This document shows, in pieces, positions 27 to 54,879 of a DNA stretch of 64,000 nt. The position numbers and the translations under genes are program-made. The stretch's first letter is position 1. Each line of letters opens with the position of its first letter. Where the stretch lies: positions 124,001 to 188,000 of the forward strand of contig JAJQDI010000009.1 of assembly GCA_021202275.1 (NCBI GenBank). Direction: 5' to 3'. The notes under the pieces are model-generated. The model had not been told where the DNA came from. It did not search any database and worked only from the letters and a program-made list of their open reading frames with translations. This DNA comes from Bacteroides sp. (GTDB lineage: Bacteria > Bacteroidota > Bacteroidia > Bacteroidales > Bacteroidaceae).

Positions 27-461
27 CTAAAGAATGGTTCTGCGCAGTTCGGGGGTGAGTTTACGACGTATGGCTTCTGTGACACGCTCTACTACTCCAT
101 CGTACCTGGATCCTTTACGGATATGGATCATATCAAACTTCCATACCTCCGCGTCCTTGTCCTGATACAGAGCATGCCATTCGAGACACTCCTCTTCGGT
201 ATCCATGAGGTTTTTATAATAAACTTCTTTCCATCCGGATCCGCAGACCAGGGATCTGATCACGGAAAAACTCTCTGCTACGGAAACCTCATCTGTATAG
301 ATATGCAGATCGATATCTCTGTGCATCAGTAGACCGGTTCGCAGGGAACCTACTATATGTACTTCGCCGCCGATACCTTCCCACAGGGAAATGACACGGG
401 TATCACTGAGTATGTGGTGTGCGGTCTGCTCACGCAACCGGGAAAGTTGAAGAATATCCAT
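27..461 (-). CDS. Nucleotidyltransferase-like protein, probably interrupted near the window edge
   Basis: The protein carries a nucleotidyltransferase-like pattern: a GS followed by GLLMHRDIDLHIY, where the DID pair resembles the metal-binding acidic residues of the MNT/KNT fold. A frame-open extension reaches 536, but I prefer the ATG at 461 (MDILQLSRLREQ): the extra 25 residues are low-complexity and a -7-like element (TACTTTCG on the minus strand, 512-519) lies inside them. The frame closes with TAG at 27-29, immediately followed in frame by a plausible continuation (IKRGMPVEG) running off the window. That looks like a Gln codon changed to TAG rather than a true end, because related proteins seem longer; this rests on memory of the family. 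Substrate unknown. Confidence 0.6.
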   Translation of the reverse strand: MDILQLSRLREQTAHHILSDTRVISLWEGIGGEVHIVGSLRTGLLMHRDIDLHIYTDEVSVAESFSVIRSLVCGSGWKEVYYKNLMDTEEECLEWHALYQDKDAEVWKFDMIHIRKGSRYDGVVERVTEAIRRKLTPELRRTIL

Positions 462-679
462 CTGAATGTTGTTTGAATGTATGTTATTTGAGTTTGTACG
501 ATCTGAGACTGCGAAAGTACAAAACCGCCGCAACATACAGCCACCTATAGCTACAAATAGCTATAGATAGCGCACGAAGAAAGAGCCCGTCGGATCAAAG
601 AAGATCTTTCCTACATTCAGATGTAGTCCTGGCCTTTTCTACCCTGAAAGACAGGAAACCCCTATCCGGGAGCAAACGA

Positions 680-717
680 GATCACCCTCGTTACACGATC
701 GTGTAACGAGGGTGATC
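680..717. terminator. 38-bp perfect palindrome between two genes, probable terminator
   Basis: GATCACCCTCGTTACAC and its exact reverse complement flank a GATC centre, so the whole 38 bp is self-complementary. It lies just downstream of the GAPDH stop codon and is bordered by short T/A tracts (CTTTCATTT on the plus strand). It would form a 17-bp hairpin able to end GAPDH transcription; the T-tract is weak. Confidence 0.65.
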
Positions 718-754
718 TTTCATTTACAGACTTCTGAGCCAGTCCACTTGTTTC

Positions 755-1759
<1,005 letters not shown>

Positions 1760-1824
1760 ACCTAATAATTTGAAATGAATGTATTTATCAGGAGAGGAGA
1801 ACGGTTCCTCTCTCTTTCCTGATG

Positions 1825-1855
1825 CAAAGTTACTGTATTATCTGTTTGGCAGCAA
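1825..1855 (-). promoter_or_regulatory. Bacteroidota-type promoter of GAPDH gene
   Basis: On the minus strand TAACTTTG (1825-1832) matches the TAnnTTTG -7 consensus and is preceded by TTG (1853-1855) about 20 nt upstream, as in Bacteroidota sigma-ABfr promoters. It lies 66 bp upstream of the GAPDH start codon. Confidence 0.65.
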
Positions 1856-1897
1856 TGACATATTATATACAAATACTGCCATATCCAAAAAAATGAT

Positions 1898-1905
1898 TAT
1901 CTTTG
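1898..1905 (+). promoter_or_regulatory. -7 element TATCTTTG upstream of GlxA-type regulator
   Basis: TATCTTTG matches the Bacteroidota -7 consensus exactly. It lies 137 bp upstream of the next plus-strand gene. A clear -33 TTTG is not visible. Confidence 0.45.
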
Positions 1906-2042
1906 TCAGTGAGACTGTCTGGTCCTGTCCCGCGTTCTTCCGGCTGATTCAAAGAGCACACAACAGACCATAGCGGCTCAGGCATACATCGTTTGTATGA
2001 TAAGTCTTCAGACAGGCTCTCTGACGAATAAATTTCTGATCT

Positions 2043-3044
2043 ATGAATGATAAAAAACAAACCCGCCATATTGTTCTGCTGGTGCCTCATTATTCAACTT
2101 TATTGGATATTTGCGGACCATTTGATGTGTTTCAGAAGGCTATCCAGTATAGCCAGGAAGCCTCTCCCCTGCCCGGTTTCACCTATCAGACGCATGTCGT
2201 GTCTACCCGGAGATCGAAACGGATCGAGATGTTGGGAGGCATTTCCATCCTGGGTGAAGGGAGCTACAAAGAGATTGATTATCCCATAGACACGCTGATC
2301 ATCGGTGGGCTTTCTCACCATCCGGAATACAAACCCGGGAAAGAGGTGCTGGCGTGAATCAAAGAGCAATCCGGCCAAGTGAGGCGCGTGTGTTCGGTAT
2401 GCGCGGGAGCGTTTATCCTGGCCGAAGCAGGGGTGCTGGCAGGCAAAAAAGCGGCTACGCACTGGATGAGGTGCGATAAGCTGGCCAGAGAGTATCCGGA
2501 CACGGAAGTAGACAGGGAAGCGATCTTTGTGAAGGATGGCCATGTGTATACGTCAGCGGGGATCACTACGGGGATGGACCTGGCACTGGCACTGATCGAA
2601 GAAGATATGGGAAAATCTTTCGCACTGAAGATCGCGCGCATCATGGTTCTTTTTCTCAAACGTCCCGGCAATCAGACACAATACAGCACGGTATTGCAGG
2701 CGCAGGAGGTGGATCACCAACCCATCAACCGGGTGATCGAGTGGATATACAACCACCTGCATGAGGAGATCACAGTGGAAAAACTCGCGGAATATTCCCT
2801 GATGAGTTCGCGCAACTTCGCGCGGGTATTTGTGCGTGAGCTCCACATTACCCCGATGAAGTATGTGGAGAAACTGCGGATAGAGACTGCCTGTCGCTAC
2901 CTTACGGAAACCCATCTGACCGTGGATGAGATAGCCAATCTTTGCGGATTCAAAAATTCGGTTACTATGAACCGGATGTTCCTGCATACGTTTCAGACCA
3001 CTCCTTCGCAATACAGGCGTGGATTCAGAAGTTCGTTCCATTAA
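2043..3044 (+). pseudogene. GlxA-type transcriptional regulator (DJ-1/PfpI + AraC HTH), in-frame TGA at codon 105
   Basis: The N-terminal half (residues 8-190) is a DJ-1/PfpI-like domain: ILVP-like HIVLLVPHYSTLLDICGPFDVF at the start and the nucleophile-elbow region VCSVCAGAFILAEAG. The C-terminal 100 residues are an AraC double helix-turn-helix, VEKLAEYSLMSSRNFARVF and VDEIANLCGFKNSVTMNRMF, ending with TTPSQYRRGF. Full length is 333 codons, normal for this architecture. TGA at 2355-2357 separates KEVLA from IKEQSGQVRR; relatives have Trp here (AWIKE...), so TGG to TGA (G to A) is the simplest explanation. No SECIS-like structure is evident, so selenocysteine is unlikely. Regulatory target unknown; neighbours do not reveal it. 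Confidence 0.85.
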
Positions 3045-3334
3045 AGCCATATCATTTACTTCGTTCTGTTCCGAAGCTGAAGAAAGATCTTCCGCTCTAC
3101 GGATCTGTTTTGCCGCATCACTTAGAGGTTTTTCGCCCTGTCAGCGTCCGGAACAGGACGGAGACAGGTCCCAACTTTTTACAGTACAAAAGTGTTATCT
3201 ATCATAGCGATAAGAAATAAGATCAGTTCTTACCCGAAGAGAAAACACCTTTTTTACCCCAGGTAATTAAACCGATCCGGGAGAAAAAAGTCTAAAAGTG
3301 AAGTCAGAAAAACAGTACATAAATAAGAAAAGAT

Positions 3335-4324
3335 ATGAACGGAAAACGTAGATATACGCTTATGGCAGTGGCAATAGTATTGACAATGGGTCTCTTTGCT
3401 GCCTGTAAAAACAGTTCAAACAGCAAGTCAGCAGAGACAGCCGGTTCACCACAGGAATCAAACCACCCCCGAAGGGGGGGAGCTGCTCCGGACAAAAGCA
3501 ACGATAAACAATTGCAGGCGTTACTCGCGGAAACAGTAGATAAATTTGTGCAGCGGGAATATAAAGATGCGGAAACGGGAGAAACCATGCAGTACAACCT
3601 CTTTATTCCCGAAGGATACGACGAGAGTAAGTCCTATCCGTTGCTGTTGTTTATCGGCGACGCAAGTACAGCAGGCAAAGATGTAAAAGTACCGCTGACA
3701 CAGGGGTACGGTGGTGTGATCTGGGCCAGTGACGCCGACCAGGCCAAACACCCGAGCTTTGTGCTTGTGCCGCAATACAAAACCCAGACAGTGAGTGATA
3801 ATTTTAATACTTCCTATGAAGTAGAAATGACCATACGTCTGCTGAATAAGATTGCCGGCGAGTATCACATAGACAGAAGCCGGCTGTATACTACAGGACA
3901 GTCGATGGGAGGAATGATGTCAATGTACTTTAATATTGCCCATCCCGATCTGTTCGCAGCTTCGCTGTTCGTAGCCTGCCAGTGGGATACAGAGAAAATG
4001 GGTGGCTTTGCGAAGGATAAGTTTTTCTACATTGTGGCAGCCGGCGATGAAAAAGCACCTAAAGGTATGTCCGCGCTGAAAACAGTGCTGGAGAAAGAGC
4101 ACGCAAAGATCGGAACAGCGGAATGGAGTGCCAAATTACCCCAGGAAGAGCAGGAAGCGAATGTGCAGAAGTTGCTCTCGGAGGGAAATAACATAAACTT
4201 TATAGTCTTTACCCAGGGAAGTGTGCAACCGGAAAACGGACTGGGAAATGAACATATGAATTCATTTGACTACGCGTACAAACTGGAAGGCGTACGGGAC
4301 TGGCTGTTCAGACAGAAACGGTAG
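3335..4324 (+). CDS. Alpha/beta-hydrolase (esterase/peptidase-like) lipoprotein
   Basis: A 329-residue secreted lipoprotein: signal peptide with lipobox LFAAC (Cys24), a Lys/Ser/Asn-rich linker, then an alpha/beta-hydrolase domain. The nucleophile elbow GQSMGG puts the catalytic Ser at residue 190; YNLFIPEGYDESKSYPLLLFIGD is the N-terminal beta-strand region typical of PHB-depolymerase/LpqC-type esterases. The acid may be Asp in AAGDEKAPKG and the His in GNEHMNSFDYAY. It probably hydrolyses an ester at the outer membrane or in the periplasm; the substrate cannot be told. The gene stands alone, followed by a run of short repeats, so it is likely monocistronic. Confidence 0.8.
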   Translation: MNGKRRYTLMAVAIVLTMGLFAACKNSSNSKSAETAGSPQESNHPRRGGAAPDKSNDKQLQALLAETVDKFVQREYKDAETGETMQYNLFIPEGYDESKSYPLLLFIGDASTAGKDVKVPLTQGYGGVIWASDADQAKHPSFVLVPQYKTQTVSDNFNTSYEVEMTIRLLNKIAGEYHIDRSRLYTTGQSMGGMMSMYFNIAHPDLFAASLFVACQWDTEKMGGFAKDKFFYIVAAGDEKAPKGMSALKTVLEKEHAKIGTAEWSAKLPQEEQEANVQKLLSEGNNINFIVFTQGSVQPENGLGNEHMNSFDYAYKLEGVRDWLFRQKR

Positions 4325-4326
4325 AT

Positions 4327-4471
4327 TTTAAGTTTTGAGTTATAAGTTTTAGGCTGTGAGCTTTAGGTGGTAAGCTATAAGTAGCAGAGGGTGAACTATA
4401 AATGTGAAAGTCATCACCTGCAACTTACCACATGGAACTCAACATCTACTACTTATAACTTAAAACTCAAA
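4327..4471. repeat. AAGTTTTGAGTT-type short repeats in inverted orientation
   Basis: Directly after the esterase gene there are several degenerate copies of AAGTTTTGAGTTATAAG on the left (4327-4385) and complementary copies (CTTATAACTTAAAACTCAAA) on the right (4449-4471). The two sides can pair into a long imperfect hairpin between two convergent genes. The same word family recurs at 6150-6182, 15405-15525, 22240-22312 and 35437-35492. Confidence 0.7.
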
Positions 4472-4756
4472 TCATTTTAACGCCTGATATTTGGTTATTT
4501 CCATGCTTTCTATCAAATCGCCGATAGCAGCCACTCCACTTTGGAAATGCGGAGTGCGGTTGTGGAAGTCAATGGCTTCTCTGCTTTTCCACTGTTCCAT
4601 AAATGTCAGTACATTTTCATTGTCAAGGTCCTCAAACAAGTTGTAGGAGATATTTCCTTCTTCTGCCCGGCTGCCTTCGATCATGGCCTGAACGGCTTGT
4701 ATAAACGCTTCTCTTTTGCCTTCTTTTACAATGGCTTTTGCAACAATAGTGATCAT
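4472..4756 (-). CDS. ABM-domain (YgiN-like) monooxygenase
   Basis: A 94-residue dimeric alpha/beta-barrel protein of the antibiotic-biosynthesis-monooxygenase/YgiN family. It starts MITIVAKAIVKEGKREAFIQAV and contains EEGNISYNLFEDLDNENVLTFMEQWKSREAIDFHNRTPHF, the usual conserved block with the late His pair. Members act as small cofactor-free oxygenases or quinol/quinone-interacting proteins; the actual substrate is unknown. A -7-like TATATTTG (minus strand, 4799-4806) lies about 40 bp upstream, suggesting its own promoter. Confidence 0.85.
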   Translation of the reverse strand: MITIVAKAIVKEGKREAFIQAVQAMIEGSRAEEGNISYNLFEDLDNENVLTFMEQWKSREAIDFHNRTPHFQSGVAAIGDLIESMEITKYQALK

Positions 4757-5051
4757 ATTTTTTTAATAAGTGTTGTGAATATATCAGATATATCCCGACA
4801 AATATACGGTTTTACAGGGAAAATATCGATCCCTGCGGAATTAATAAAAGAGAACAAGCTGTTTTTATTTCTCTGACACCTATTTATGGACTTTGCCAGA
4901 CAGCACTACAGGAGAATCCACATCTGTTGCTTTGCAAAAATATCCTCCACACATATCCTGTCCACACCCTTAATCTATCTCAAAAAAGGAACTTTTGCTT
5001 TGCCGGAATGTTATAGAGTATTTAGTATGAACATTTTAAAGTTTTAAGATC

Positions 5052-6149: not shown

Positions 6150-6182
6150 TAAGTTGTGAGTTATGAGTTGTAAGTTGTAAGG
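6150..6182. repeat. AAGTTGTGAGTT-type short repeat copies
   Basis: Immediately after the alcohol dehydrogenase stop, AAGTTGTGAGTTATGAGTTG and AAGTTGTAAGG-type words follow each other. They belong to the same degenerate family as the copies after the esterase gene. Confidence 0.55.
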
Positions 6183-6284
6183 TACGGATGTGAAAGTCCG
6201 AAACCGCTTTCCATAGAACTCACTTTTCAGGATGAATATGTAGAAGGAAAACAGGAAGTATAAAAAGACCTGGTAAACAAGAAC

Positions 6285-6327
6285 AAAAAAGCAGGAACAG
6301 AACTGTTCAGTCTGTTCCTGCTTTTTT
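6285..6327. terminator. Bidirectional intrinsic terminator shared by convergent genes
   Basis: The 17-nt arms at 6285-6301 (AAAAAAGCAGGAACAGA) and 6311-6327 (TCTGTTCCTGCTTTTTT) pair perfectly around a 9-nt loop, giving a GC stem flanked by A6 and T6 tracts usable in both directions. It overlaps the last seven codons of the minus-strand Crp/Fnr gene, so that gene's C-terminus is encoded within its own terminator. Confidence 0.85.
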
Positions 6328-6891
6328 CACGATCTGTGCCCGTATACGACTCAGGGATTGGGGAGTAATACCCAGGTATCCGGCAATTTCTCTGAGGGTG
6401 ACTTTCTGCAACAGGTCGGGCATTTTTCTGGTAAAGGCGAGGTAACGGTCTGTGGCATCGGAAGAAAAAATGTCGATCAGCGCGTTGTCTGTGTGCAGCA
6501 ACAACTGCTCAAACAAACGTGTGATCCATACAGAGAGCACTGCCGAATGTTCCATCAGTTTGTTGACGCTTTCCTTACGAAGCCGGTATACCCGACAGTC
6601 GGAAGAGGCTACGATATAGATGCGCGACGGACGGTCTTCTACATATCCCCACGAAGAAAACAGCGCTTCCCCGGGAACGGCAAACCAGATGGTCACTTCC
6701 CTATCTTCCAACTCTTTATATCCGCGGAGTATCCCCTCAGAGATCAGATAGAGAGAACGGTCTGTCCGCCCCTCCCTGATCAGTATATCGCCTTTTTGCA
6801 ACCGGATCTCTTCCACTTCCGACAGCAGGAGTTCTTTGTCTTCCCGCGTCAGATCCGTTGGGTTACCCACTCGTTTGAAAAATTCTTCCAT
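6307..6891 (-). CDS. Crp/Fnr-family transcriptional regulator
   Basis: A 194-residue regulator with an N-terminal cyclic-nucleotide-binding-like beta-roll (EIRLQKGDILIREGRTDRSLYLISEGILRGY) and a C-terminal winged helix (VTLREIAGYLGITPQSLSRIRAQI). It lacks the Cys residues of Fnr and a canonical cAMP pocket, as usual for the many Bacteroidota members. I chose the ATG at 6891. This overlaps the end of the upstream MATE gene by 43 bp in another frame, suggesting translational coupling. An open frame continues upstream only because the MATE gene is frameshifted into this frame. It may control the pump. Confidence 0.85.
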   Translation of the reverse strand: MEEFFKRVGNPTDLTREDKELLLSEVEEIRLQKGDILIREGRTDRSLYLISEGILRGYKELEDREVTIWFAVPGEALFSSWGYVEDRPSRIYIVASSDCRVYRLRKESVNKLMEHSAVLSVWITRLFEQLLLHTDNALIDIFSSDATDRYLAFTRKMPDLLQKVTLREIAGYLGITPQSLSRIRAQIVKKAGTD

Positions 6892-8232
6892 GTATACTTT
6901 TCGATCAAAAACGTAATCCCTATCCATACAGTGGTCAGTACTTCGGCCACCGGAACAGCCAGCCAGATACCACGCCCGCCCCACCACAAAGGTAACACGA
7001 AAAAGCAAATAACAGGCAGTATTCCGCGTATCAATGTGAAAGCAATGGCTTTGCGCACATCCTCCACACACATACAGTATCCACAGACCACGATGTTGAT
7101 CCCGAAAAATATGAAATCCAGGGCAAACAAGGGCAATCCATAGGTAGCGATCTCCCACGCGGGATTGGACGGATCGGTGATAAACCAGGAGACAACAGTG
7201 TCTTTCCACATCCAAGCCACCCACAGAAAAAAACGCTCCCGCGGCTGCCGCCACCTTCAGGGCAAGGGAAAAGGCTTGCCGTCCGCGGGCATACATACCG
7301 CATCCGTAGTTGTAGCTGATAATGGGCTGGGCACTCTGAACCGTTGCATTGAACAGCATAAAGATAACAGGGAACAGATAGCAGATGATGCTATAGGCTG
7401 CTACCCCGCTCACACCCAGGTGACGTGCGAAGACAAAGTTGCCTGCTACCATCATCAGGGCAATGGTGAGTTCGCTGAAGAACGCCGAACATCCCAGACG
7501 GATCATATAGCCGGTATTGCGCAGGGTGAGCCTCATACTTTTCACGCTCCATTTCAGACGAAGCAGTTTCACCTGCGGAGAATAGCGCAGCAGATAGACC
7601 AGCAACATCGAAACGCCTGCGATCTCCCCGACACCTGTGGCAAGGGCTGCCCCGGCCAATCCCCAGCCTGTGACGAAAATAAATACGTAGTCGAATACGA
7701 TGTTTATCACTGTACCTGTGATGACACACACCATGGAAAAGGCAGGGCTGACCATGCGTACAAAGAACGGCAAGGTACACAACAGGCATTGAAATACTGC
7801 AAATACGATGTAATAGCGCAGGTAGATTGCCGCATCGTTCAGAATATTTGCCGGCGATCCGAGCCACAGAGCTGTCTGCCGGGCAAAAATAAATACCACT
7901 ACAGATACCAGCAGCATAGCTGAGGAAGATACCACCACAGCCTGGGTGGCGTTGATATTGGCTACCCGGGTCTTGTGGCGCGACAGCTGGATAGAGGCCA
8001 CAATGGCCCCTCCCATACCAAACATCAGTCCTGCGCCGGTGATGAACAGCGAAACGGGGGCCACGATATTCACCGCCGCCAGTGCATCGCTGCCAATACC
8101 CCGCCCGACAAATATACCATCTGTAATGATGAACAAGGCGGTAGCAAGCATCCCTAACACATTGGGTACCCATTGTCTCACAAACAAATGTCCCACGTCC
8201 TTTTTCCCAAAATCAATTTTATCCCTCAACAT
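6849..8232 (-). pseudogene. MATE-family multidrug/cation antiporter, frameshifted at a homopolymer
   Basis: The N-terminal two thirds read clearly as a MATE transporter: IDFGKKDVGHLFVRQWVPNVLGMLATALFIITDGIFVGRGIG, then repeated hydrophobic segments. At an A7 run (7227-7233, T7 on the coding strand) the frame breaks. The C-terminal third (MAWMWKDTVVSWFITDPSN ... VLTTVWIGITFLIEKYTW) continues in the neighbouring frame to TGA at 6849. Removing one T restores a normal protein of about 460 residues with 12 membrane segments. I place the start at 8232 (MLRDKIDFGKK); an upstream TTG at 8271 is less likely. It exports drugs or cations using an ion gradient. Confidence 0.87.
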
Positions 8233-8559
8233 ATCTTTTACTTTTTCCGGAGCCAGGCCAACATTCAGCAATCCTCCCCGGGAAAATCACTTCCAGATAC
8301 GGATCAGCATCCTGCACATACGCACTGATAAAGAGAGGACTAACCTCCCAGCCGGCTCTTCATTTCCCGGCAAAGGTACAGCAAGAAAAACTCCCGCAGA
8401 TTACCAAATGGTAATTTCGCCCGCGCTGTGCCGGGGGCGTATGAGATCTGCAACACACGTTGGGAGGAGATGAAAAAGATCTTTTTTCCTTCATTTCTAT
8501 TTATAGAAATCACTATCCGCAAATAGGGAAACAACCTGGCCGGAATGAATTTCCCTACC

Positions 8560-8567
8560 TATCTTTG
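8560..8567 (+). promoter_or_regulatory. -7 element TATCTTTG of the small lipoprotein gene
   Basis: Exact TATCTTTG 24 bp upstream of the ATG of the next gene; the -33 region is not distinct. Confidence 0.6.
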
Positions 8568-10096: not shown

Positions 10097-10477
10097 ATGG
10101 ATCCTTCCGGACAAACAGCCATGGAAAAACAAGCAACTCCCGAAACAGTAGCCCTTCGTTTCAACGACTGCATCAACCGACGCGATCTCGACGGCCTGAC
10201 CAGTCTGATGACAGATGATCACGTATTTGTCGGTTCTATAGGCCAACGTGTAGAAGGGAAAATGGCTAACCGGAAGATGTGGAACGACTTTTTCACCCTC
10301 TTTCCTGATTATCAGAATATCTTTGAAACAGTTACCCGACAAGGAAACACAGTTGTCATGCAAGGACGCTCCATATGTACAGACGAACGGCTCAACACCC
10401 ACTCCATATGGACAGCCCGGATAAAAGGAAACCAGTTAGAAGAGTGGCGCGTATGCTCCGATCCCCACGTAGTATGA
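10097..10477 (+). CDS. SnoaL-like / NTF2-fold protein
   Basis: A 126-residue member of the SnoaL-like (nuclear transport factor 2) superfamily: an N-terminal helix VALRFNDCINRRDLDGLTSLMTDDHVFV followed by the curved sheet with MWNDFFTLFPDYQNIFETV and the closing WRVCSDP strand. Members are small cyclases, isomerases or ligand-binding proteins; no substrate can be assigned. The ATG at 10121 (MEKQATPE) is an alternative start. Its TGA overlaps the ATG of the next gene, indicating an operon with translational coupling. Confidence 0.75.
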   Translation: MDPSGQTAMEKQATPETVALRFNDCINRRDLDGLTSLMTDDHVFVGSIGQRVEGKMANRKMWNDFFTLFPDYQNIFETVTRQGNTVVMQGRSICTDERLNTHSIWTARIKGNQLEEWRVCSDPHVV

Positions 10478-15525: not shown

Positions 15526-15529
15526 GTAT

Positions 15530-17372: not shown

Positions 17373-19247
17373 TCAGAAATTCAGACTCACCCCGCCCATC
17401 ACTGTAGCCCGGGGCATAGGGAAGCCCAGCATCGTTTCATACTTCTGTGCCAGGAGGTTGTCTCCCTTCACAAATACCTCTCCCCATCTCCAGGCGCGAT
17501 ATGCCACACGGGCATCCACCCATGTATAACTGCTTGACTCGCCCTGCTCTCCTGTAGAAAGGAGCAGTTTATCTATCACCTGCGCACCCGCGCTCAGCGT
17601 AAACCTGCCCGGACGATACGTCACACCCGCATAGAATTTGTTCCGGGGAGCACCTGTAATATCCGTATCCATATGCAGATAACTGTAATTACTATGCAGA
17701 GAGAGGTTGTCAAGGATCTGGTAAGTCAGGCTGAATTCTACCCCTTTGTTGGCAAACTCTCCCACATTCCGGTTCTTCGGATTGCCATCCACCGGTACAG
17801 TCTCCACGATGTTATCTCCTTTGATGTAATAGAGGGCCAGTTCCATAGAAAGGCGGTTGTCAAGCAATCGTTGCGATACACTGAGATCGTAACTCAGGCT
17901 ACGCTCGGGAAGCAGGTCTTCATTCGCAGAATCATACATATAAAGTTCACGCATATTCGGCGTACGGAAACCTTTCGATACAGAGAACTTCAGATGCGTT
18001 TCCTTAGCTGCCCGGAAAGAGATCCCTCCCTGAGGCACCCACTCCGTTCCATAGAGTTTATGATTTTCCAGACGCAGACCGGCATTGATCATAAAACGTC
18101 CCAGCTCCTGCTGGACAAACACATACCCGGCTATCTCATGCAGTTTGACATGGTCGGCATAGATCTCCGTCTCCGGATTACGATAGGCATTCCCACCATA
18201 CAGCTTCACATCAAATCCGCCGGTGAGGGTATTCCCGGGGAAGAGGTTGACAGCCTGATACAGATTCAGACCACCCATGTAATCTGTCGATCTGAACAGG
18301 AACTCACGGGGATTGCCGCCTTCGGTATATCCGTCGTTGATCTTATGATTTCCCCAATTGTAATACAGGTTCAGGGCCCCGCGCGTGATACCGTGGTTGT
18401 TTTCCAGAGAGAGCCCCGACATACCCCGCAACACATCCGCGGTACCTTCATACATGGGATTGCTTACCGTGCCCGGATTGTTGGAATTGGCCTGTGCAAT
18501 GTTTACATTGGCAGTCACTTTCCACTCTTCAGAAATATCATATCCCACTTTTCCGAACCCACTGAACAGTTCAAAACCGGAGTTCGGACGATGTCCGTCC
18601 GTGCGCTCATAATTTCCACTCACCACTCCCGACCAGGGTCCCTGGCGGTAACTATCAGTCAGTGAGTACCGTTGTGTGCTGTAAGACCCTCCCATGAGCC
18701 TCACATTCAAGTGATTTCCCTCCTGGGTAGCCTGGCGGGTGATGATATTGATGGCTCCTGCCATCGCATTCGATCCATACAGAACGGACGACGGACCACG
18801 TGAAACCTCCACCCGCTGCGCGTCGGAAGCAATATAAGCATCTGCTACCGGATGGCCATAGATCGTGGCATATTGAGGATGCCCATCGATTAGGATCAAT
18901 ACCCGTCCGGCACCGCCTCCCATACCACGCAGATTGATGCCACCTGCCGACCCGCCGGACACACCGTAACCGGCAATCCCACGAGAGGTAACAAATAGTC
19001 CGGGAACTTACTGCGTGAGCGCGGGGAGTATCGTGGTTTCTCCGCTCAACTCGATCTGGTTACGAGACACCACACTCACCGGAACAGGCAACAGATCGCG
19101 TGCGATGGGTACGCGTGAACCGGTTACCACTACTTCTCCCAATTCATATTTTCTCATGGAAATGGTATCGTTGGGTTGCTGATTCTCCGCCTGCGCTACA
19201 ATTGTACACAACAGACAGCCGAAGGATAGATTCAAAATTCTTTTCAT
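17373..19247 (-). pseudogene. TonB-dependent outer-membrane receptor, in-frame TAA at codon 80
   Basis: A BtuB/FepA-type receptor of 624 codons: signal peptide, TonB box region (ISMRKYELGEVVVTGSR), plug domain (VEVSRGPSSVLYGSNAMAGAINIITRQ) and a 22-strand barrel ending in an aromatic residue (MGGVSLNF). It would import a siderophore, cobalamin or other large ligand; no ligand can be deduced. TAA at 19008-19010 splits ILPALTQ from VPGLFVTSRGIAGYG in the plug. This is where receptors usually continue with a polar residue such as Gln, so CAA to TAA is likely. The rest is undamaged. A secreted protein encoded upstream on the same strand (50-bp gap) is probably co-transcribed. Confidence 0.9.
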
Positions 19248-19296
19248 GTTTGCTCTTATTTGCTTTACGAATTATTTTCTGTTTTGTTTTTTGCTC

Positions 19297-29571: not shown

Positions 29572-30492
29572 TCACTTACTACCCCTCCCCCTTTTCCCGT
29601 ACAGCCTGCGAAATTCCAAAGGAGAGGATCCATTCCGTCTTTTAAAAAATTTCCCGAAGGCGGATTGATCGGAGAAATTCAGTTTCATGGCGATTTCCTG
29701 GATAGACAGTCTGGAATGGGTCAGCAGGATACGCGCTTCACTGTACAACATCTCAAAAATAAAATCACTCACACTTTGTCTGGTTACAGACTTCACTACG
29801 GATGTCAGGTAGTGAGTAGAAACGTGCAACCGGGAAGCATAGAATTCTACTTTATGTTCCGACTGATAATGGGTAACCAGCAACTCAATAAATGACTATA
29901 CCAGGCTCTCTTTGCGCGTTGTATCTTCCGGATCAGACAAATCCGGATGGCACTCTATGGGGTGGCTCAGATCCAGAAAAAAACCGAACAGGCTGTTTTG
30001 TACCAGATCCCTGTAGTAATAGTGTGTGGTATGATCCACGCTGTGATCCACCATACACATCCGATGGAACAACGTTGCTATGTGCGAAGGCTCCAGCTGG
30101 ACTACAGGTCTACTATACAGCCTGACCCCATATCTGATGCGCTGAGAGATCATAGCTGTAGAGTCCATCTCCGTCATAAATTCTCTGCTGACAAACAGGC
30201 ACAAACAACTGATATCGGAACTACACTGTTCAAAACGGAACAGATGAGAAGAGGAGAATAACAACAGGCAATTTTTCGTGAAAGGATAAGATCTGTAATT
30301 CACAGTTACAGTGCCTGTTCCTGATAAGACCAATATAACGGTAACAGCATCTAAATAAACACCGGAAGAGAACTGACTGACGATCGCCGGATAATCCACC
30401 GCGATACATCCCACTTTCCTCCTCATTTCATTGGATATATCACTTATAAAAGACAGATCGGTGATGGTTTTAATCTGAATTTTCTCTTTCAT
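29572..30492 (-). pseudogene. AraC-family regulator of the efflux operon, in-frame TAG at codon 199
   Basis: A 306-codon AraC regulator. The N-terminal 190 residues form a cupin-like sensor (VILVLSGTGTVTVNYRSYPFTKNCLLLFSS). The C-terminal 100 hold both helix-turn-helix motifs (VEFYASRLHVSTHYLTSVVKSV and IQEIAMKLNFSDQSAFGKFFKRRNGSSPLEFR). TAG at 29896-29898 divides KESLV from SFIELLVTHYQ in the linker, where Gln would be natural (CAG to TAG). Both halves are otherwise undamaged. It is divergent from the TolC-EmrA-EmrB-like genes and probably their regulator; if the stop is real, only the sensor domain is made. Confidence 0.88.
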
Positions 30493-38642: not shown

Positions 38643-39223
38643 ATCAATAAACGTTACATCAATTTAATCCAGAACAGATGAACGGATAGAAAAGTTTATC
38701 CCGGACAGAAAGACGCGCAGACAGTCATTCCGCCTGTTTCGTAGCAAACAGATCAGCGCCTCACGGATATGTATGGGTATCTCTACGCAAATCCCTTATT
38801 CATTCGCAGATCCCTTTTCTCCCTTCCCGGTTATGGGCCACATTCAATACTTGTTCCCTGATTTCCCGGATCTATTGTCTTTTTTTATCTTTGCAGCAAA
38901 GATGGATCTTAGTCTCATTCGGGTAAACGTAATCCCGTGTCTGGTTTTCACAGGAAGACGGTCCGGAAAAAGTTCCGGATGAATGGGAGCGTAGCCTTTC
39001 ACCTGCATTTCATGAAAATCAGAAGATGCATAATTTGATCCGGATCTTTGTGAAATTGTAACCTGGCAATGATCCATAGGAACTATGACAAAAGATCTGA
39101 AAGAAAAAAAGAGACGTAATAAATCGATTTTATTCCGTTGGAAAGGAGGAGTAGGATCCAAAGAAAAAAATTGCATATTTATCTGTGCCATTTCTTATTT
39201 TTAATTCAACATAAACTGAAAGT
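38643..39223. other. 581-bp intergenic region; orphan promoter, no gene recognised
   Basis: A perfect -7 element (TATCTTTG, 38886-38893) is followed 11 bp later by an ATG opening a frame of only 22 codons (ending TGA near 38980). No coding sequence of recognisable family follows until 39224. It could be a relic promoter or the start of a small RNA. Confidence 0.45.
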
Positions 39224-39836
39224 ATGATGAAAACAAAGAGTATGTTAGTCAGCGCCCTTGTATGTATCGGAATGATAGCAGCCTGTGGCGGAACAACAAA
39301 CAGATCCCAAGCCGGAGATCCTGAGGATAGTCGTAGTGAAGATGGTAAAAAAATCGGCAAGCTGGAAATTACAGTCGATTACAAGCGCCAGGATGGAAGA
39401 GGAAGCAACCAATATGCTGTCTGGGTGGAAGACGCTGTGGGTAACTTAGTTAAAACGCTGTATGTAACTCAATTCACCGCCGACGGAGGCTATAAAAAAA
39501 CGTCCGGATTGTACACCTCTGTGGGTCACCAAAGCCCATGCTCCTTCATTAAGTAAAGAACAAATAGATGCTTTCTCTGGTGCTACTCCGCAGACCGGAC
39601 TACAGGTGTATACCTGGGACGGTACCGATCAGGCAGGCAAAGAGGTAGAGCCCGGATCCTACACATTTGTTGTAGAGGCAACCTATCTGGGTAGCCACAT
39701 TGTCCTGTTCAAAGGAGAGTTTGATACCGATAACAAAGAGATCACCATCGCCCCGGAACCGGAGTTTAATTCCGGGGAATCTCAGAATCGCGACATGATA
39801 CAAGAGGTAACCGCACGTTATCTACCTGCCTCATAA
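39224..39836 (+). pseudogene. DUF2271 lipoprotein, frameshifted in an A7 run
   Basis: The N-terminus is a lipoprotein signal (MLVSALVCIGMIAAC) followed by GKLEITVDYKRQDGRGSNQYAVWVEDAVGNLVKTLYVTQFTADGGYKK. This is DUF2271, a periplasmic immunoglobulin-like domain found in flavin and haem reductase loci. At 39494-39500 an A7 run shifts the frame. With one A fewer the protein continues through LSKEQIDAFSGATPQTGLQVYTWDGTDQAGKEVEPGSYTFVVEA to the stop at 39836, giving about 203 residues. No DUF4198 or FMN-transfer partner is adjacent, as in some DUF2271 loci. Confidence 0.8.
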
Positions 39837-40216: not shown

Positions 40217-41137
40217 ATGGCACTTTACAAATCAGGCAAACAACTACTCGTTCCCATCAAAGAAAAGCCTTTCAAACTGGAAAAGGAGATACAGGAGCTA
40301 TTTGAAAAACACATTTCCACCATTATGGATATTGAGTTTGTTAAATCCGAGTTTACGATCAAGAACAAACGGATCGATACCTTGTGTTTCGATCCACGGT
40401 CCAAAGCTTTTATTATTATTGAATACAAAAGAGACCGGAACGCGAGTGTAGTGGACCAGGGATTCACTTACCTGAGTCTGATGCTCCAATACAAATCGGA
40501 TTTCATACTGGAATACAACGAAAATATGCAGAAACACCTCCGGCGCGACGATGTAGACTGGTCGCAGTCGCAGGTTGTGTTTGTATCGACCAGTTTCACG
40601 GACAACCAGCGCGAAGCGGCCAACTTCAAAGATCTGGCTATCGAATTGTGGGAAGTGAAGCGTTACGAAAACGACATCGTTTCTATCCGTCCCATCCGGA
40701 AAAGCAAATCGGCAGAGAGTATCAAGCCGGTGACGGAACGCAACAAAGAGCTGAAACAGGTCACAGACGAGATCCGGATCTATACCGAAGAGGAACACCT
40801 GCATGGCAAACCCGTTCAGATGGCCCAACTTTATACCAGGTTCCGTGCCGCGATTCTCAATCTGTCCGATGATATAGAAGTAGATCCGAAAAAATTCTAC
40901 ATCGCTTTCAAAAAGGACAAGAACATCTGCGACATAGGGATCAAGATGAAATCCATCAATATCTATATAAACCTTCGTATGGGTTGCCTCGACGACCCAA
41001 AGAACCTGGCAAAAGACGTAGCCCGGAAAGGACATTAGGGAAACGGAGATTATATGGTAAAAGTTACCAATGACCACGATCTGGAATATATCATGAGCCT
41101 GATCAAACAAGCGATATCAGGCTGTTCATCGGTCTGA
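40217..41137 (+). pseudogene. DUF5655 / NucS-like nuclease-fold protein, in-frame TAG near the C-terminus
   Basis: A 306-codon protein. The N-terminal 130 residues have a restriction-endonuclease-like core: KSEFTIKNKRIDTLCFDPRSKAFIIIEYKRDRNASVVDQGFTYLSLML, where D, E and K (IDTL...IIEYK) form a PD-(D/E)xK active site. The C-terminal domain (YTRFRAAILNLSDDIEVDPKKFYIAFKKDKNICDIGIKMKSINIYINL) is DUF5655. The frame stops at TAG 41036-41038 after ARKGH. The following codons GNGDYMVKVTNDHDLEYIMSLIKQA are the usual family end, which begins GHWGNGDY, so TGG to TAG (G to A) is likely. Without the tail, 33 residues are lost. Confidence 0.85.
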
Positions 41138-41297: not shown

Positions 41298-42146
41298 TTA
41301 TCGCCCGCGATCCGGTTGCGGCATTTCTCTGGCTTCCGTCAACTTCCCGGGACTACAGCCATATTTCTGTTTGAAACACCGGGAAAAATGAGCCTGTGTC
41401 TCAAAACCAAATTCCCAATACACAGCAGAGGGTTTGAGGCACTCTTCCCTCATCTTCCGGTAGGCCGCGGAAAGCCGTTTGTCCATCAGCCACTTGGCCG
41501 GAGTGGTACCAAACACCTGCAGGAACTCCCGGCGAAACGTAGAAAGGCTACGCCCCGAATACTCCGCGAATTTGCACAAAGGGGCGTTGAACATATAATT
41601 CTGTTCCATATACTCTCTGAGATCTTTCTGAGGATACGCTCCGAAACGCAGGACAAAGGAAGAGAGCTCTTTGTCTGTCAGTGTCAGGATATGGATCGCT
41701 TCCTGTACCTTCATCCACATCCATCGCTGTCCGGGCAGACACCGATGGCGGATGCTCTACACCACCGGAGAAAAGAGAAGTTCGAGCAACTTCCGGTTTT
41801 CCAGCTTCCTGAGTATCACCGGTGAATATTCCGCTACCGAAGGACACAGGTTGTATTGCAAATAACTCTTTACGTCTTTGTCGGTGATATTGAAACAGAT
41901 CATCCGGAACAGTCCGCCCGCAGAAGGATAGGTACGTATGCGGGAAAAATCGCCCTTCCCTGCAAACATATATTCACCTGCCCGGGAAGCGACCTGAACC
42001 TGTGAAGTCTGCATGGTGATCCGACCTTCCAGGATATACATCAGCTTGTGACACGGTTCGTGGATCTCTTTAAACGTAGGACGGTTGTAACAGATATAAT
42101 AGATGGGACTATCCGCGCTGTAGGCTTCTGCGATTCTCTTTTTCAT
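41298..42146 (-). pseudogene. AraC-family regulator facing an MFS pump, in-frame TAG about codon 130
   Basis: An AraC regulator of about 283 codons. A cupin sensor with CHKLMYILEGRITMQ opens the protein. The two helix-turn-helix motifs are LCKFAEYSGRSLSTFRREFLQVFGTTPAKWLMDKRL and YWEFGFETQAHFSRCFKQKYGCSPGKL, with a Pro/Arg tail. TAG at 41757-41759 separates LLFSPVV from SIRHRCLPGQRWMW and would be CAG (Gln) if one C-to-T change is reversed. Start at 42146 (MKKRIAEAY); 42155 is also possible. A promoter TATCTTTG (minus, 42176-42183) precedes it and faces the MFS promoter. Confidence 0.85.
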
Positions 42147-42175
42147 CCTATACATTCTTTTCTGACTTTCACAGA

Positions 42176-46609: not shown

Positions 46610-46693
46610 CCCGCTTCTATGCAGACAGAGGGGGAGCTGACCGGAGCCCTCTGCTGACAAGCAGAGCAGGCATACGCAACAGCAGCCGTTCAC

Positions 46694-47833: not shown

Positions 47834-47842
47834 GTGTAGCAA

Positions 47843-48171: not shown

Positions 48172-48175
48172 TTAT
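48008..48175. repeat. AAATCGTAAATCTGTAAATCG-type short repeats
   Basis: Three clusters of degenerate words (ATCAGTAAATCGTAATTAG at 48021-48039, AATCTGTAAATCGTAGATG at 48082-48100, AAATCGTAAATCTGTAAATC at 48148-48167), related to a copy near 35605. The last cluster overlaps the end of the AraC gene. Confidence 0.65.
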
Positions 48176-49002: not shown

Positions 49003-49120
49003 CCATTCATTTCTGTTTTGGACACAAAAATACGTGTAAAATGTTAATTAATCAGCATCCTTTTCCGAAAATGAACAGCATCAGTCTCATTCTGAAAAAG
49101 AACAGCCATCCATCAAAAAG

Positions 49121-49128
49121 TACCTTTG
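49121..49128 (+). promoter_or_regulatory. -7 element TACCTTTG of the RND operon
   Basis: TACCTTTG fits TAnnTTTG, 32 bp upstream of the adaptor gene; the divergent AraC element at 49025-49032 is about 90 bp away. Confidence 0.6.
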
Positions 49129-49160
49129 CAGCCGGAAATTTATACAGTTAAAAAGAAAAA

Positions 49161-50273
49161 ATGAAAAAATCAACAGTAAAAGCGACATGTATGTGGGTAT
49201 GCCTGGCTATACTTGCCGGATGCAAATCTGAACAAGCCACTCAGCCTGTAGCCGAATACGCCACCCTGCGGGTGAGCCGTACGGAGCGTGAACTTTTCCA
49301 GCACTATCCCGCCACCATCCGCGGACGACAAGACATCGATATCCTGCCACAGGTCAGCGGATTTATCTCTGAAGTGCGTGTAAAAGAAGGGGAAAAAGTA
49401 AAGAAAGGACAAACACTCTTTATCATAGATTAGGTACCCTACCAGGCTGCTTTGCAACAGGCACAGGCCAATGCGGAAGCGGCCCGGGCCGCTGTGTCTA
49501 CGGCTCAGCTGACCTATGACAGCAAAACAGAGCTGTTCAACCGCAACGTAGTATCCCGGTTCGACCTCTCTACGGCAGAAAACCAGCTGCTCACCGCCAA
49601 AGCACAACAGGCCCAGGCCGAAGCCCAGGAAGTAACGGCACGCAACAACCTCTCGTATACCGTAGTTACCAGTCCCTCCGACGGAGTAGTAGGTACATTG
49701 CCTTATCGCGTAGGCGCGCTGGTAAGCGCTTCCATGCCCAAGCCCCTGACCACGGTCTCGGACAATTCGGAAATGTATGTCTATTTCTCCATGACAGAGA
49801 ACCAGTTGCTTTCTCTGACCCGCAGCTACGGATCCATAGACGAAGCCCTGCGCTCCATGCCGGATGTGCAGCTCCTGTTGAGCGACGGCTCCGGCTACAG
49901 CCATCCGGGACGCATCGAATCCATCAGCGGAGTGATAGACCCTACCACAGGAAGCATTTCCCTGCGCGCGGTATTTCCCAACCAGGGACGTTTGCTGCAC
50001 AGCGGCGGATCGGGCAATGTAGTGATTGCCCGCAAACAGGAAAACTGCCTGGTGATCCCACAGATCGCGACCACGGAGATACAGGATAAGAAGTATGTAT
50101 ACCTGGTAGAAGGAGAAACTCCCAGACGTGTTCCGGTGGAAGTAACCCCACTGAGCAACGGACAGGAATACATCGTAGAGTCGGGGCTCAGTGAAGGAGA
50201 CGTGATCGTGTCCGAAGGCGTAGGACTGATCCGCGACGGCGTGGCGATCAGGACCAGATCTGCCGGATTGTAA
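49161..50273 (+). pseudogene. RND membrane-fusion protein (AcrA/MexA-like), in-frame TAG at codon 91
   Basis: A 370-codon periplasmic adaptor with lipobox LAGC (Cys21). The first lipoyl half is YPATIRGRQDIDILPQVSGFISEVRVKEGEKVKKGQTLFIID; the coiled-coil hairpin follows (residues 92-150), then NNLSYTVVTSPSDGVVGTLPYRVGALVSASMPKPLTTVSD and the beta-barrel/MP domain. TAG at 49431-49433 sits between TLFIID and VPYQAALQQAQ, where relatives read DQVPYQAAL, so CAG to TAG is the likely change. Everything downstream is intact. It would couple the RND pump with the outer-membrane channel. Confidence 0.93.
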
Positions 50274-50303
50274 CCCCATCCCAACCGTAAAAAAGAAACA
50301 AGC

Positions 50304-53300
50304 ATGACATTAAAATATTTTATCGACCGCCCTGTACTGTCGGCGGTCATCTCCATTGTGATCGTTCTGGGAGGAGTGATCGGACTTTCTACCCTACCCG
50401 TAGAACAGTATCCCGACATTGCTCCGCCCACAGTCATGGTAATGACTTCCTACCCGGGAGCCAGCGCGGAAACCCTGCAGAACAGTGTGATCGCTCCCCT
50501 GGAAGAAGCCATCAACGGTGTAGAGAACATGACCTACATGACCTCCTCCGCTACCAATTCGGGAACGGTAACCATCAACGTCTACTTCAAACAGGGCACA
50601 GACCCCGATATGGCAGCTGTGAATGTGCAGAACAAAGTATCCAAAGCCACCGGAGCCCTCCCTTCGGAAGTGACTAAGGTCGGCGTACAGACCATCAAAC
50701 GGCAGACAAGTATCCTGAAGATATTCTCCCTCTACAGCCCCGATGGCAGTTACGACAACAATTTCCTGAGCAATTACCTCAAGATCAACCTGCAACCCCA
50801 GCTGTTGCGTATAGCCGGTGTGGGCGAGCTTGTGGTTATGGGAGGCGACTATAGCATGTGTATCTGGATGAAACCCGATGTGATGGCACAGTACGGATTG
50901 GTACCTGCCGACATCACTGCCGCGCTCAACGAACAGAACATCGAATCGGCTACCGGGGCTTTCTCGGAAAATGCCGGACAGACCTACCAGTACACCATGA
51001 AATACTCGGGTCGTCTGGTGACCCCCGAAGAGTTTGAAGACATTGTGATCCGTGCCCTGCCCGATGGCGAACTGCTCCGGCTCAGAGACATTGCCGACAT
51101 TGAACTGGGCCAGCAACGGTACAGTTACGAAGGGGCCACCAACGGCAAACCGGGTATCTCCTGTATGGTGTTCCAGACTGCCGGCTCCAACGCCACCGAA
51201 GTGATCCGGCAGATCGACGCGCTGCTCGAAGAGGCTCAGCAAACCATGCCTGCGGGGATGGAAGTGGTAGAGTTGAGAAATGCCAACGACTTCCTGTTCG
51301 CTTCCATCCGGGAAGTAATCAAGACCCTGTTAGAAGCTGTGTTCTTAGTGATCCTGATCGTGTATATCTTCCTGCAGGACCTGCGCTCTACGCTGATCCC
51401 GCTGGTAGGGGTCATCGTCTCCCTGATCGGTACCTTTGCCTTCCTCTCTTTCTTCGGGTTCAGCATCAACCTGCTCACCCTCTTCGCGCTGGTACTGGCC
51501 ATCGGTACGGTGGTAGATGATGCCATCATTGTGGTGGAGGCGGTACAGGCACGGTTCGATGTGGGCTACCGCTCCTCCTACATGGCTGCCAACGATGCCA
51601 TGAAGGGGATCAGCTCTGCCATCATCACCTCTACCTTAGTCTTTATGGCGGTATTTATTCCGGTCTCTCTGATGGGAGGTACTTCGGGTACCTTCTATAC
51701 CCAGTTCGGTATCACCATGGCTGTGGCGGTAGGTCTGTCGGCTGTCAATGCCCTGACCCTCTCTCCTACCCTCTGCGCCCTGCTGCTCAAGCCTTATGTA
51801 GATGAAGACGGCAAGGAGAAAAACAACTTCGCCGCCCGCTTCCGCAAGGCGTTCAATACCTCTTTCGATGCCCTGGTACGCAAATACCAATACGGCGTAT
51901 TCCTGTTCATCAAACGTCCCTGGCTCACCTGGTCGGTACTGATCGCCTCGATCGTGCTGTTGGTCGTACTAATGAACCATACCAAGACCGGACTGGTGCC
52001 CGATGAAGACCAGGGAAGTATCTTTGTCAATGTAAACACGGCCCCCGGCAGTTCGCTCGACCAGACCAATCAGGTGATGATGGAACTGGAAAAACGGGTC
52101 AGCGAGATCCCGCAGATACAGACCTATTCGCGTGTGGCCGGGTACGCAATGATCGCCGGACAGGGACCTTCGTACGGTATGATCACCATCAAGCTGAAGC
52201 CCTGGGACGAACGCCAGGGAAAAGGCGATGATGTGCAATCCGTGATTGCCGATCTGTACCGCCGCACGGCCGACATCAAAGATGCCAGTATCTTCGCCAT
52301 GGCGCCGCCCATGATCACCGGCTACGGTACGGGCAACGGATTCGATATGCACCTTCAGGACCGCCAGGGCGGAGACATCGAAACGTTCTACGGCTACACC
52401 CGGCAATTTATTGCCGCGCTGAACCAACGTCCGGAGATTGCCTCTGCCTATTCTTCGTTCAGCATCAGCAATCCGCAATGGCTTGTGGAGGTAGATGCTG
52501 CGCGCTGCAAGCGCGCGGGAATTTCTCCCGGTGAGGTGCTCTCTACGCTGTCTGCTTACTACGGCGGTCACTATGTATCCGATTTCAACCGTTTCTCCCG
52601 CGTCTATTATGTGATGCTGTAAGCCGCACCCGAATACCGCCTCGATGCCGCGTCGCTCGATCAGGTATATGTACGGATCAACGGAGAGATGGCACCCATC
52701 AGTCAGTTTGTCAACCTGACCAAAGTATACGGAGCGGAAGCCCTCAACCGCTTCAATATGTATACTTCCATCGCTGTCAATGGCCAGGCGGCCGACGGGT
52801 ACAGTTCCGGAGATGCCATCCGCGCCATCCGGGAAGTAGCAGCCTCTACGCTGCCGCAAGGATACGGATACGAATTTGCCGGGATCACCCGCGAAGAGAG
52901 CCAGAGTACCAACACCACGGTGATCATCTTTGCCATCTGTATTCTGCTCATCTACCTGATCCTGAGTGCGCTGTACGAGAGCTTCCTGATCCCCTTCGCC
53001 GTGATCCTGTCTGTTCCGTGCGGACTGATGGGTAGTTTTCTCTTTGCCAAAACCCTGGGACTGGAAAACAACATCTACCTGCAGACCGGACTGATCATGC
53101 TGATCGGATTGCTTTCCAAAACAGCAATCCTGCTCACGGAATTTGCCGTAGAGCGCCGCGCCAGTGGCATGTCACTCGCTGCCGCCGCGCTGGCCGCGGC
53201 TAAGGTGCGCCTGCGTCCGATCCTGATGACGGCCCTCACAATGATATTCGGACTGCTGCCCCTTGTATTCTCTACCGGAGTGGGTGCCAACGGGAACAGT

Positions 53301-53492
53301 TCGCTCGGCACAGGTGCCGTAGGGGGTATGCTGATCGGTACGCTGGCACTCCTGTTCCTGGTACCATCCCTGTTTATCGTGTTCCAGTACCTGCAGGAGA
53401 AGATCCGCCCCGTAGAGATCAACAGCCACCCCGACTGGGCGATACAGGCAGAGATCGAAGAAAATGAAGAACGTAAAAAGCAGAACACATAA
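50304..53492 (+). pseudogene. RND multidrug efflux pump (AcrB/MexB-like), in-frame TAA at codon 773
   Basis: A 1062-codon HAE1-type inner-membrane pump. The N-terminus FFIDRPV-like LKYFIDRPVLSAVISIVIVLGGVIG, porter domains, and the proton-relay helix GTVVDDAIIVVEAV (Asp pair in helix 4) are present; helix 10 reads TQLTGLIMLIGLLSKTAILLTEFAVE-like (Lys). TAA at 52620-52622 separates RFSRVYYVML from AAPEYRLDAASLDQVYVRI in the second half of the porter domain, where relatives have VMLQA, so CAA to TAA is likely. It trims the protein to 772 residues, without helices 8-12, and would be inactive. Adaptor and channel genes flank it. Confidence 0.94.
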
Positions 53493-53493
53493 T

Positions 53494-54879
53494 ATGAAAA
53501 AACTAATGATATACCTGAGTATCGCGGCTTGTATGACAAGCTGCGGTATCTACAAACCTTACCAGCGTCCGGAGGTGTAGACAGACGGACTTTTCGGCGA
53601 GGAATACGAGACTACCGATACGCTGTCTGCGGGAGATATCTGCTGGCAGGAATTCTTTACCGATCCCTGCCTGCAACAACTGATCGGACAGGGCCTGCGT
53701 CAGAACACCGACCTGCAGATCGCCCACCTGCGCATCCGCCAGGCAGAAGCGGCTTTGCTGACCTCCAGACTGGCCTATCTGCCTTCGCTGCACCTTACCC
53801 CCGAAGGATCACTGGCCAGCTTCGACCGCTCGGCGCCTTCCCGGACCTACACACTGCCCGTGGCAGCCAGCTGGGAGATTGACGCGTTTGGCAAACTGAC
53901 CAGCAACCGCAAACGCTCCCGGGCGGCTTACCTGCAAAGTCAGGAATACCGTCAGGCCGTACGTACACAACTGATCGCCGGGATCTCCAACCTGTATTAT
54001 ACGCTGTTGATGCTGGACAAGCAGTACGAGATCAGTGAACATACTGCCGCCGCGTGGCGCGAAAGTGTAGAAACGATGCGTGCCATGAAAGAGGCAGGTA
54101 TGACCACCGAAGCGGGTGTAGCACAGACAGAAGGCAATTACTACGCCATCGAAGCCTCCCTGCACGACCTGAAACAGCAGATCAGCGAAGTAGAGAACAG
54201 CCTGGCACTGCTGTTGGGCGAATCGCCCCACACGATCGGGCGGGGAAAGTTGGATGATCAGGAATTTCCCGCGGAACTGACCACCGGAGTGCCTTTGCGG
54301 CTGCTTGCCAATCGTCCGGACGTGAGAAGCGCGGAGCTCTCCCTGATGCAGGCCCACTACGCCACCAACGCTGCCCGGTCGGCTCTCTACCCGGCCATCA
54401 ACCTCAGCGGGCTTGCCGGATGGACCAACAGCGCGGGTAGCTACATCGTGAATCCGGGCAAACTCCTGCTTACTGCCACGGCTTCGCTCACCCAGCCGCT
54501 CTTCAACCGGGGGCTGAACCTGGCACAGGTGAAGATCTCCAAAGCGCAACAGGAAGAGGCGGCTCTCTCTTTTCAGCAGACCTTGCTCAACGCGGGTGCC
54601 GAAGTAAATGACGCGCTGACACAGTACCAGACTGCCCGCAACAAACAGGAATTGCGCATCAGGCAGATCCATTCGCTTGAAAACGCACTGGAAAGTACGG
54701 AATTGCTGATGACACACGGCTCTACCACGTATCTGGAAATACTGACAGCCCGCCAGAGCCTGCTCTCGGCACAACTGGCAGGCGTAGCCGACCGTTTCAG
54801 TGAGATACAGGGAATGATCAGCCTCTACCATGCGCTGGGAGGAGGACGTGAACTTCCGGAGGATAGCAACGAAGAGTGA
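53494..54879 (+). pseudogene. RND outer-membrane channel lipoprotein (OprM/NodT-like), in-frame TAG at codon 29
   Basis: A 462-codon outer-membrane factor. The lipoprotein signal ends with MTSC (Cys17). After the N-terminal GIYKPYQRPEV, a TAG at 53578-53580 interrupts before TDGLFGEEYETTDTLS; a Gln or Glu codon is expected. The NodT repeats follow: LRIRQAEAALLTSRLAYLPSLHLTPEGSLASFDRS ... VAASWEIDAFGKL, and RLLANRPDVRSAELSLMQAHYATNAARSALYPAINLSGLAG, and the final TYLEILTARQSLLSAQLAGVADRFSEI. It begins 1 bp after the pump stop codon, so is co-translated. All three cistrons of this operon carry a stop. Confidence 0.92.

Follow-up and report, generated by a model that had tools for sequence, protein, structure and literature searches.

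Broken genes and a split mutS in a Bacteroides sp. genome suggest recent pseudogenization in a lineage probably deficient in mismatch repair

Interrupted genes in the window

The window analyzed here is a whole stretch of 64,000 nucleotides from a Bacteroides sp. genome (G000:C15:124001-188000, in an assembly of 4.43 Mb, 33 contigs and 95.46% completeness), and it holds ten genes that are each interrupted by an in-frame stop codon (seven TAG, two TAA and one TGA). The reading frame runs on past every one of the ten stops, and homologues align over the stop sites. A preliminary description, made from the sequence alone, had reported ten such stops, frames that continue beyond them and the presence of all three stop types, and each of these statements is borne out. 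The interrupted genes are as follows:

27..536, minus strand: nucleotidyltransferase-like gene at the window edge; TAG at 27-29, with the frame continuing to the left of the window (adjoining stretch L120)
755..1759, minus strand: GAPDH; TAG at 1436-1438
2043..3044, plus strand: GlxA-type regulator (name from the preliminary description; homologues found); TGA at 2355-2357
17373..19271, minus strand: TonB-dependent receptor; TAA at 19008-19010
29572..30492, minus strand: AraC-type regulator at 30 kb (name from the preliminary description); TAG at 29896-29898
40217..41137, plus strand: DUF5655 gene; TAG at 41036-41038
41298..42155, minus strand: AraC-type regulator at 41.7 kb; TAG at 41757-41759
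49152..50273, plus strand: RND efflux adaptor; TAG at 49431-49433
50304..53492, plus strand: RND efflux pump; TAA at 52620-52622
53494..54879, plus strand: RND outer-membrane channel; TAG at 53578-53580, after 28 codons

Six bases to each side of the stops, no shared sequence context is apparent by eye, as the preliminary description had also found. A second GAPDH copy, free of stops, lies on contig C10. A paralogue of the 41.7-kb AraC-type regulator is found about 37 kb further along (G000:C15:202834-203199), in an open frame of 292 amino acids (aa) without a stop.

To identify the residue lost at each site, we aligned the surroundings of the stop, with X in its place, to loci of related genomes, these loci being the best matches fetched rather than every genome. 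Glutamine occupies the site in 28 of 29 relatives’ loci for GAPDH, in 27 of 29 for the TonB-dependent receptor, in 65 of 80 for the RND adaptor and in all 79 for the RND pump, and tryptophan occupies it in all nine for the GlxA-type regulator. At the DUF5655 stop, tryptophan is present in the 95% and 86% homologues (P0001 and P0002) and phenylalanine in both genus-level loci. The stop of the edge nucleotidyltransferase faces glutamine in P0121 (98% identity) and P0122 (86%), and arginine in a 69% homologue. For the 41.7-kb AraC-type regulator, the 99%-identical P0241 has glutamine, a 73% homologue has leucine, and five loci have leucine, isoleucine or valine. The channel residue is variable over 75 loci, with glutamine in eight; among the contigs discussed below, L005 has glutamine and L004 arginine.

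Overall, these alignments support eight of the ten stops as C:G to T:A transitions at glutamine or tryptophan codons, with no proven transversion. The preliminary description had derived all ten stops from such codons and had proposed alignment to relatives as the check; glutamine or tryptophan was indeed recovered at the eight, and other or variable residues at the 30-kb AraC-type regulator (mostly lysine) and the channel, for which the proposed origin is one possibility among others. Its report that no transversion was seen likewise holds for the eight, while the stop in the 30-kb AraC-type regulator may be a transversion. The emphasis that it placed on the C:G to T:A direction has to be dropped: under the genetic code, every stop-making transition is C:G to T:A. 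Since this is so, “all C:G to T:A” adds nothing beyond “all transitions”, and what carries information is that no resolved stop is a transversion.

How informative the lack of transversions is depends on the transition bias assumed. The codons of this genome offer 4.7 times as many routes to a stop by transversion as by transition (0.307 vs 0.065 per codon, over 254,286 codons). The probability of observing eight transitions in eight stops is 9e-7 at equal per-route rates and rises with the per-route transition bias, to 0.0005 (bias 3), 0.0096 (bias 6) and 0.49 (bias 50). Missense changes polarized by a second homologue are too small in number for more than an indication, but they too are mostly transitions: five out of six for the window lineage, and ten out of 12 for the lineage of the near-identical strain from which P0121 and P0241 come. 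In mutation-accumulation experiments, two wild-type Vibrio species had transition-to-transversion ratios of 1.59 and 0.851, and deletion of mutS raised their substitution rates 85- and 317-fold with transitions dominant, according to the available text of PMC5854121. For a natural mutS mutant, the available text of PMC4316635 gives 97.5% of substitutions as transitions and 97.73% of small indels as lying in simple repeats, with an insertion bias. The stops in the window suggest a mutator-like spectrum of this kind, with the caveat that they amount to eight events.

Three frame changes at homopolymers add to the stops. They were unreported in the preliminary description, whose observation was right and in this respect slightly understated:

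6307..8271, minus strand: MATE transporter; frame change at a T7 run, at about 7205-7233
39215..39836, plus strand: DUF2271 gene; frame change at an A7 run near 39500, with a profile match to 58-121 only, in the second frame
61890..62656, plus strand: DJ-1/PfpI gene; frame change at a G9 run near 62355, with profile positions 13-94 in one frame and 93-162 in the next

By chance, the open frame of the MATE gene continues into the next gene, a cNMP-binding regulator, and automatic annotation would probably present the two as one 654-aa chimera. The DUF5131 gene at 62850-63472 matches its profile over positions 103-223 of 243 only, the N-terminal part lying outside the same open frame, and is possibly the site of a fourth frame change in the window.

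mutS and lesions across the genome and its relatives

The gene for the mismatch-repair protein MutS is itself split in this assembly. In a search with MutS_V, the open frame measured 339 aa, compared to 876-907 aa in six comparison genomes (G043, G081, G025, G012, G007 and G003). At the locus, one frame holds 548 residues comprising domains I, II, III and IV, and another holds the ATPase domain V alone. The frame changes at residue 568/569 of the G025 reference, where there is no homopolymer, and neither aligned piece contains a stop. Such a MutS, whose ATPase is on a different chain from mismatch recognition, is predicted to have no activity.

The mutS frame is short or split in four related genomes as well, at 415 aa (G107), 630 aa (G092), 786 and 104 aa (G109) and 149 and 114 aa (G108); among these four, the locus itself was read in G107 only, and the short frame of G092 may be a contig-edge effect. 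In G107 the frame changes at residues of about 315 and 484. These changes lie elsewhere and are therefore not the lesion of the genome studied here, and the frame length in G109 suggests that its mutS is open past the places where both of the others break. It is thus likely, as far as these frames can tell, that mutS was lost more than once among these related genomes. In total, a short or split mutS is found in five of five decaying genomes, compared to none of the six comparison genomes.

Among other repair genes, two of the UDG family are open in this genome (222 and 243 aa), and the window carries a further repair gene:

60025..60558, plus strand: O6-methylguanine-DNA methyltransferase, 177 aa, apparently intact

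In the related genome G109, a UDG gene (G109:C114:14437-14915) is split with a TGA. A further gene of the MutS_V family (G000:C3:42865-43347) has an open frame of 491 aa vs 610-688 aa in six relatives; in G108 the frame measures only 333 aa and has a TAG, and in G109 it measures 181 aa.

We counted frameshifts with a frame-tolerant gene model over 1.23 Mb (28%) of the genome. Many single predictions of this model are unproven, and it is the homopolymer enrichment, not any single prediction, that constitutes the evidence. A run of at least six identical bases lay within 25 nucleotides of 43 of the 109 predicted frameshifts, compared to 3.5% of 2436 random coding positions, and 25 of the 109 were near a run of at least seven (background, 0.8%). 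Among the comparison genomes, runs of at least six lay near 6 of 43 predicted frameshifts in G043 (background, 5.5%) and near none of 12 in G007, G012 and G003 together. Predicted frameshifts per 100 kb numbered 6.2 in the window and 9.0 in the rest of the genome, and 5.7, 2.8, 3.3 and 3.7 in G043, G007, G012 and G003, respectively. Within the window the model called four frame changes, of which those at 7205 and 62355 match genes described above; the change in DUF2271 was missed. The call at 6901 marks the point where the frame is regained in the following gene, and the call at 10468 joins two different families and was left uncounted.

Conserved genes contained fewer predicted frameshifts than expected (4 vs 14.5, p 0.0007, at 50% identity; 4 vs 12.3, p 0.004, at 60%), in a gene set that was chosen by alignment, which could bias the test. 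One conserved gene that is affected is guaA, encoding GMP synthase (L115:12236-13757; C10, about 282-284 kb), which changes frame at a G8 run and is 89% identical to the G043 gene. This change and those in the window are read most simply as insertions.

Lesions of both kinds recur in other genes and other genomes. The first piece of the window’s RND pump is nearest to three contigs of metagenome-assembled genomes labelled Tannerellaceae bacterium (L004, 84%; L005, 81%; L058, 85%), and the organism is accordingly taken to be a likely member of this family, in the Bacteroidales. The orthologue is open in L004, has two TAG codons in L005 (L005:6001-9180), and has frame changes and a TAG in L058 (L058:4902-9186); the stop of the window’s pump is shared by none of the three. 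Among the matches listed, which for this genome are all but one of 11, three of nine RND pumps of this genome are broken, G043, G012, G007 and G003 have no pump with a stop, G025 has one split pump gene, G081 has two partial matches, and G092, G107, G108 and G109 have several pumps with stops or in pieces, some of them at contig ends. One of the broken pumps of this genome (G000:C15:279481-282512) has two TAG codons and is in two pieces. In G092, the GlxA gene has its own TGA at another tryptophan, and the AraC gene has a frame change. A purely regional cause of the breaks in the window was considered and is not supported, as breaks are found on other contigs too.

Orthologues were also scanned for interior breaks, in chains covering 60% or more (70% where identity classes are compared). 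At 50% identity or more, 6 of 103 orthologues of this genome were broken (4 of 99 outside the window), compared to 0 of 92 in G043 and 0 of 11 in G007 (Fisher p 0.029). Coding density was 0.673 in the window and 0.755 in the rest of the genome vs 0.807-0.862 in the comparison genomes. A search with PF00133 showed this genome's tRNA synthetase matches to be free of stops, the one TAG falling in a weaker match of G043.

Origin of the lesions

We favor the explanation that the lesions reflect recent, ongoing pseudogenization in a lineage deficient in mismatch repair, its mutS being split, and we give it a probability of roughly 0.6. The break in the mutS frame would abolish mismatch repair in the cells, and uncorrected transitions and homopolymer slips would then accumulate; the break would have preceded most of the stops. 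The transitions and the frameshifts at homopolymers could both be accounted for by a frameshifted mutS. The broken genes may be under relaxed selection, as happens when a bacterium becomes confined to a narrow niche, and lesions would be likely to persist in genes that the organism can do without. The lesions look recent, near-identical intact homologues existing, and mutation in this organism is probably unusually fast, with dispensable genes being lost.

Several results weigh against this explanation. A scan of 1.23 Mb (28%) of the genome for a mutL motif gave no match. Nonsense changes are blind to the A:T to G:C half of the spectrum, and the six polarized missense changes of the window lineage (four C:G to T:A, one A:T to G:C and one transversion) are too few to fill it in. 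Two stops may be transversions: that of the 30-kb AraC-type regulator, which faces lysine in eight of ten loci, histidine in one and arginine in one, and the TAG of a further broken RND pump (G000:C29:36174-39167), which faces lysine in its one close orthologue. For one of the six broken orthologues (L324), the stop falls opposite a gap in the alignment, and among orthologues of 35-50% identity, whose alignments can be trusted less, the contrast is reversed (3 of 34 broken in this genome; 6 of 36, with 37 stops, in G043). The depletion of frameshifts in conserved genes is not significant at 70% identity (3 vs 6.8, p 0.086) or in the homopolymer subset (2 vs 5.7, p 0.063). The frame change in guaA may fit a sequence error or a polymorphic run, or may be a real loss.

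A reference-free search for in-frame stops was also unfavorable. Run with a low stop penalty, it yielded 10.9 stops per 100 kb in the window and 4.0 in the rest of the genome, and 1.2, 2.5, 4.5 (G043) and 7.8 (G007) in the others; its seven calls in the window comprised five of the ten stops described above and the normal ends of two genes (33209 and 50271). A high penalty left two calls in the window, of which that at 50271 is again a normal gene end. This search does not separate the genome from the comparison genomes.

The strongest competitor, to which we assign a clearly smaller though appreciable chance, is ordinary accumulation of pseudogenes in a host-restricted or bottlenecked lineage with working repair, in which transitions dominate through the usual GC to AT bias and the mutS frameshift was a late casualty. 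The genes affected belong to dispensable or redundant classes (regulators, a receptor, efflux components and a duplicated GAPDH), as this explanation would have it, and it is also in keeping with the stop-free synthetase matches, with the decay of related genomes and with the high pseudogene loads reported for several symbionts in the literature available to us. It is strained by the eight transitions in eight stops, which demand a strong bias, given the low ratios of the two wild-type Vibrio species (PMC5854121), as well as by the clustering of frameshifts at homopolymers and by the distribution of short or split mutS between the decaying and the comparison genomes.

We consider it rather unlikely that errors of sequencing or assembly account for the breaks, miscalls having made the stops and homopolymer indels the frameshifts, that of mutS included. 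Homopolymer indels are the commonest long-read error, and the position of the frame changes, the near-identical intact proteins in public assemblies and the involvement of the conserved guaA all fit this explanation. The near-identical intact homologues, however, differ from the window at further residues and are thus other strains, not corrected copies. Moreover, the changes in the window and in guaA are simplest as insertions, the mutS change lies outside homopolymers, and the stops share no motif visible by eye. The possibility of sequence error, which the preliminary description had left open, loses ground because conserved genes have fewer predicted frameshifts than expected, less clearly so under stricter cuts, and because separately assembled relatives decay as well: the pump is interrupted by different stops or frame changes in L005 and L058, whose contigs bear names in the style of a short-read assembler, and mutS is frameshifted in G107, to which L004 belongs.

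An excess of damage by cytosine deamination or alkylation, as suggested in the preliminary description, now appears improbable. The eight resolved stops are C:G to T:A, as such damage would make them, but so is any stop-making transition, and the frameshifts would go unexplained. Deamination is disfavored by the two open UDG-family genes, and O6-methylguanine alkylation by the apparently intact methyltransferase in the window. That the stops are read through or recoded, to which the continuing frames might point, we reject as very improbable, because all three stop codons interrupt genes, relatives have sense codons at the sites and neighboring genes have frame changes.

If pseudogenization under mismatch-repair deficiency is the correct explanation, it may extend beyond a single genome. 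We tentatively raise the possibility, which we regard as rather less likely to be right than wrong, that mutS was destroyed repeatedly and independently in the related Tannerellaceae, and that the loss of repair came first and set off an erosion that has reached different depths in different genomes. Among the titles and beginnings of abstracts listed in open-access searches, there was no work on mutS loss in Tannerellaceae and no group of related Bacteroidales with repeated mutS breakage.

Comparison with known systems

Mutators and eroding genomes are both already known. Whether the loss of mismatch repair starts or accompanies the erosion of symbiont genomes is hard to test, as most reduced genomes are old. 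Here, the lesions are recent in appearance, relatives have mutS broken elsewhere, and relatives at the same genus level have it at full length, so that the order of events could become readable from sequence.

The closest parallel for the mutational side is Pseudomonas fluorescens ATCC948, a natural mutS mutator, which, by the available text of PMC4316635, resembles the present genome in its frame-broken mutS, its dominance of transitions and its indels in repeats with an insertion bias. Unlike ATCC948, a laboratory strain with a measured mutation rate, the genome described here is known from sequence alone, and related genomes are affected too. For the erosive side, Sodalis glossinidius is comparable in its many pseudogenes, its low coding density and a genome that is not yet small; for this insect endosymbiont the available text of PMC7067036 gives almost 50% pseudogenes, whereas the decay observed here looks milder. 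Finally, Synergitannerella mixotrichae, described in the available text of PMC12483993 as an ectosymbiont of termite-gut flagellates belonging to the Tannerellaceae, is alike in its family and in having host-associated relatives.

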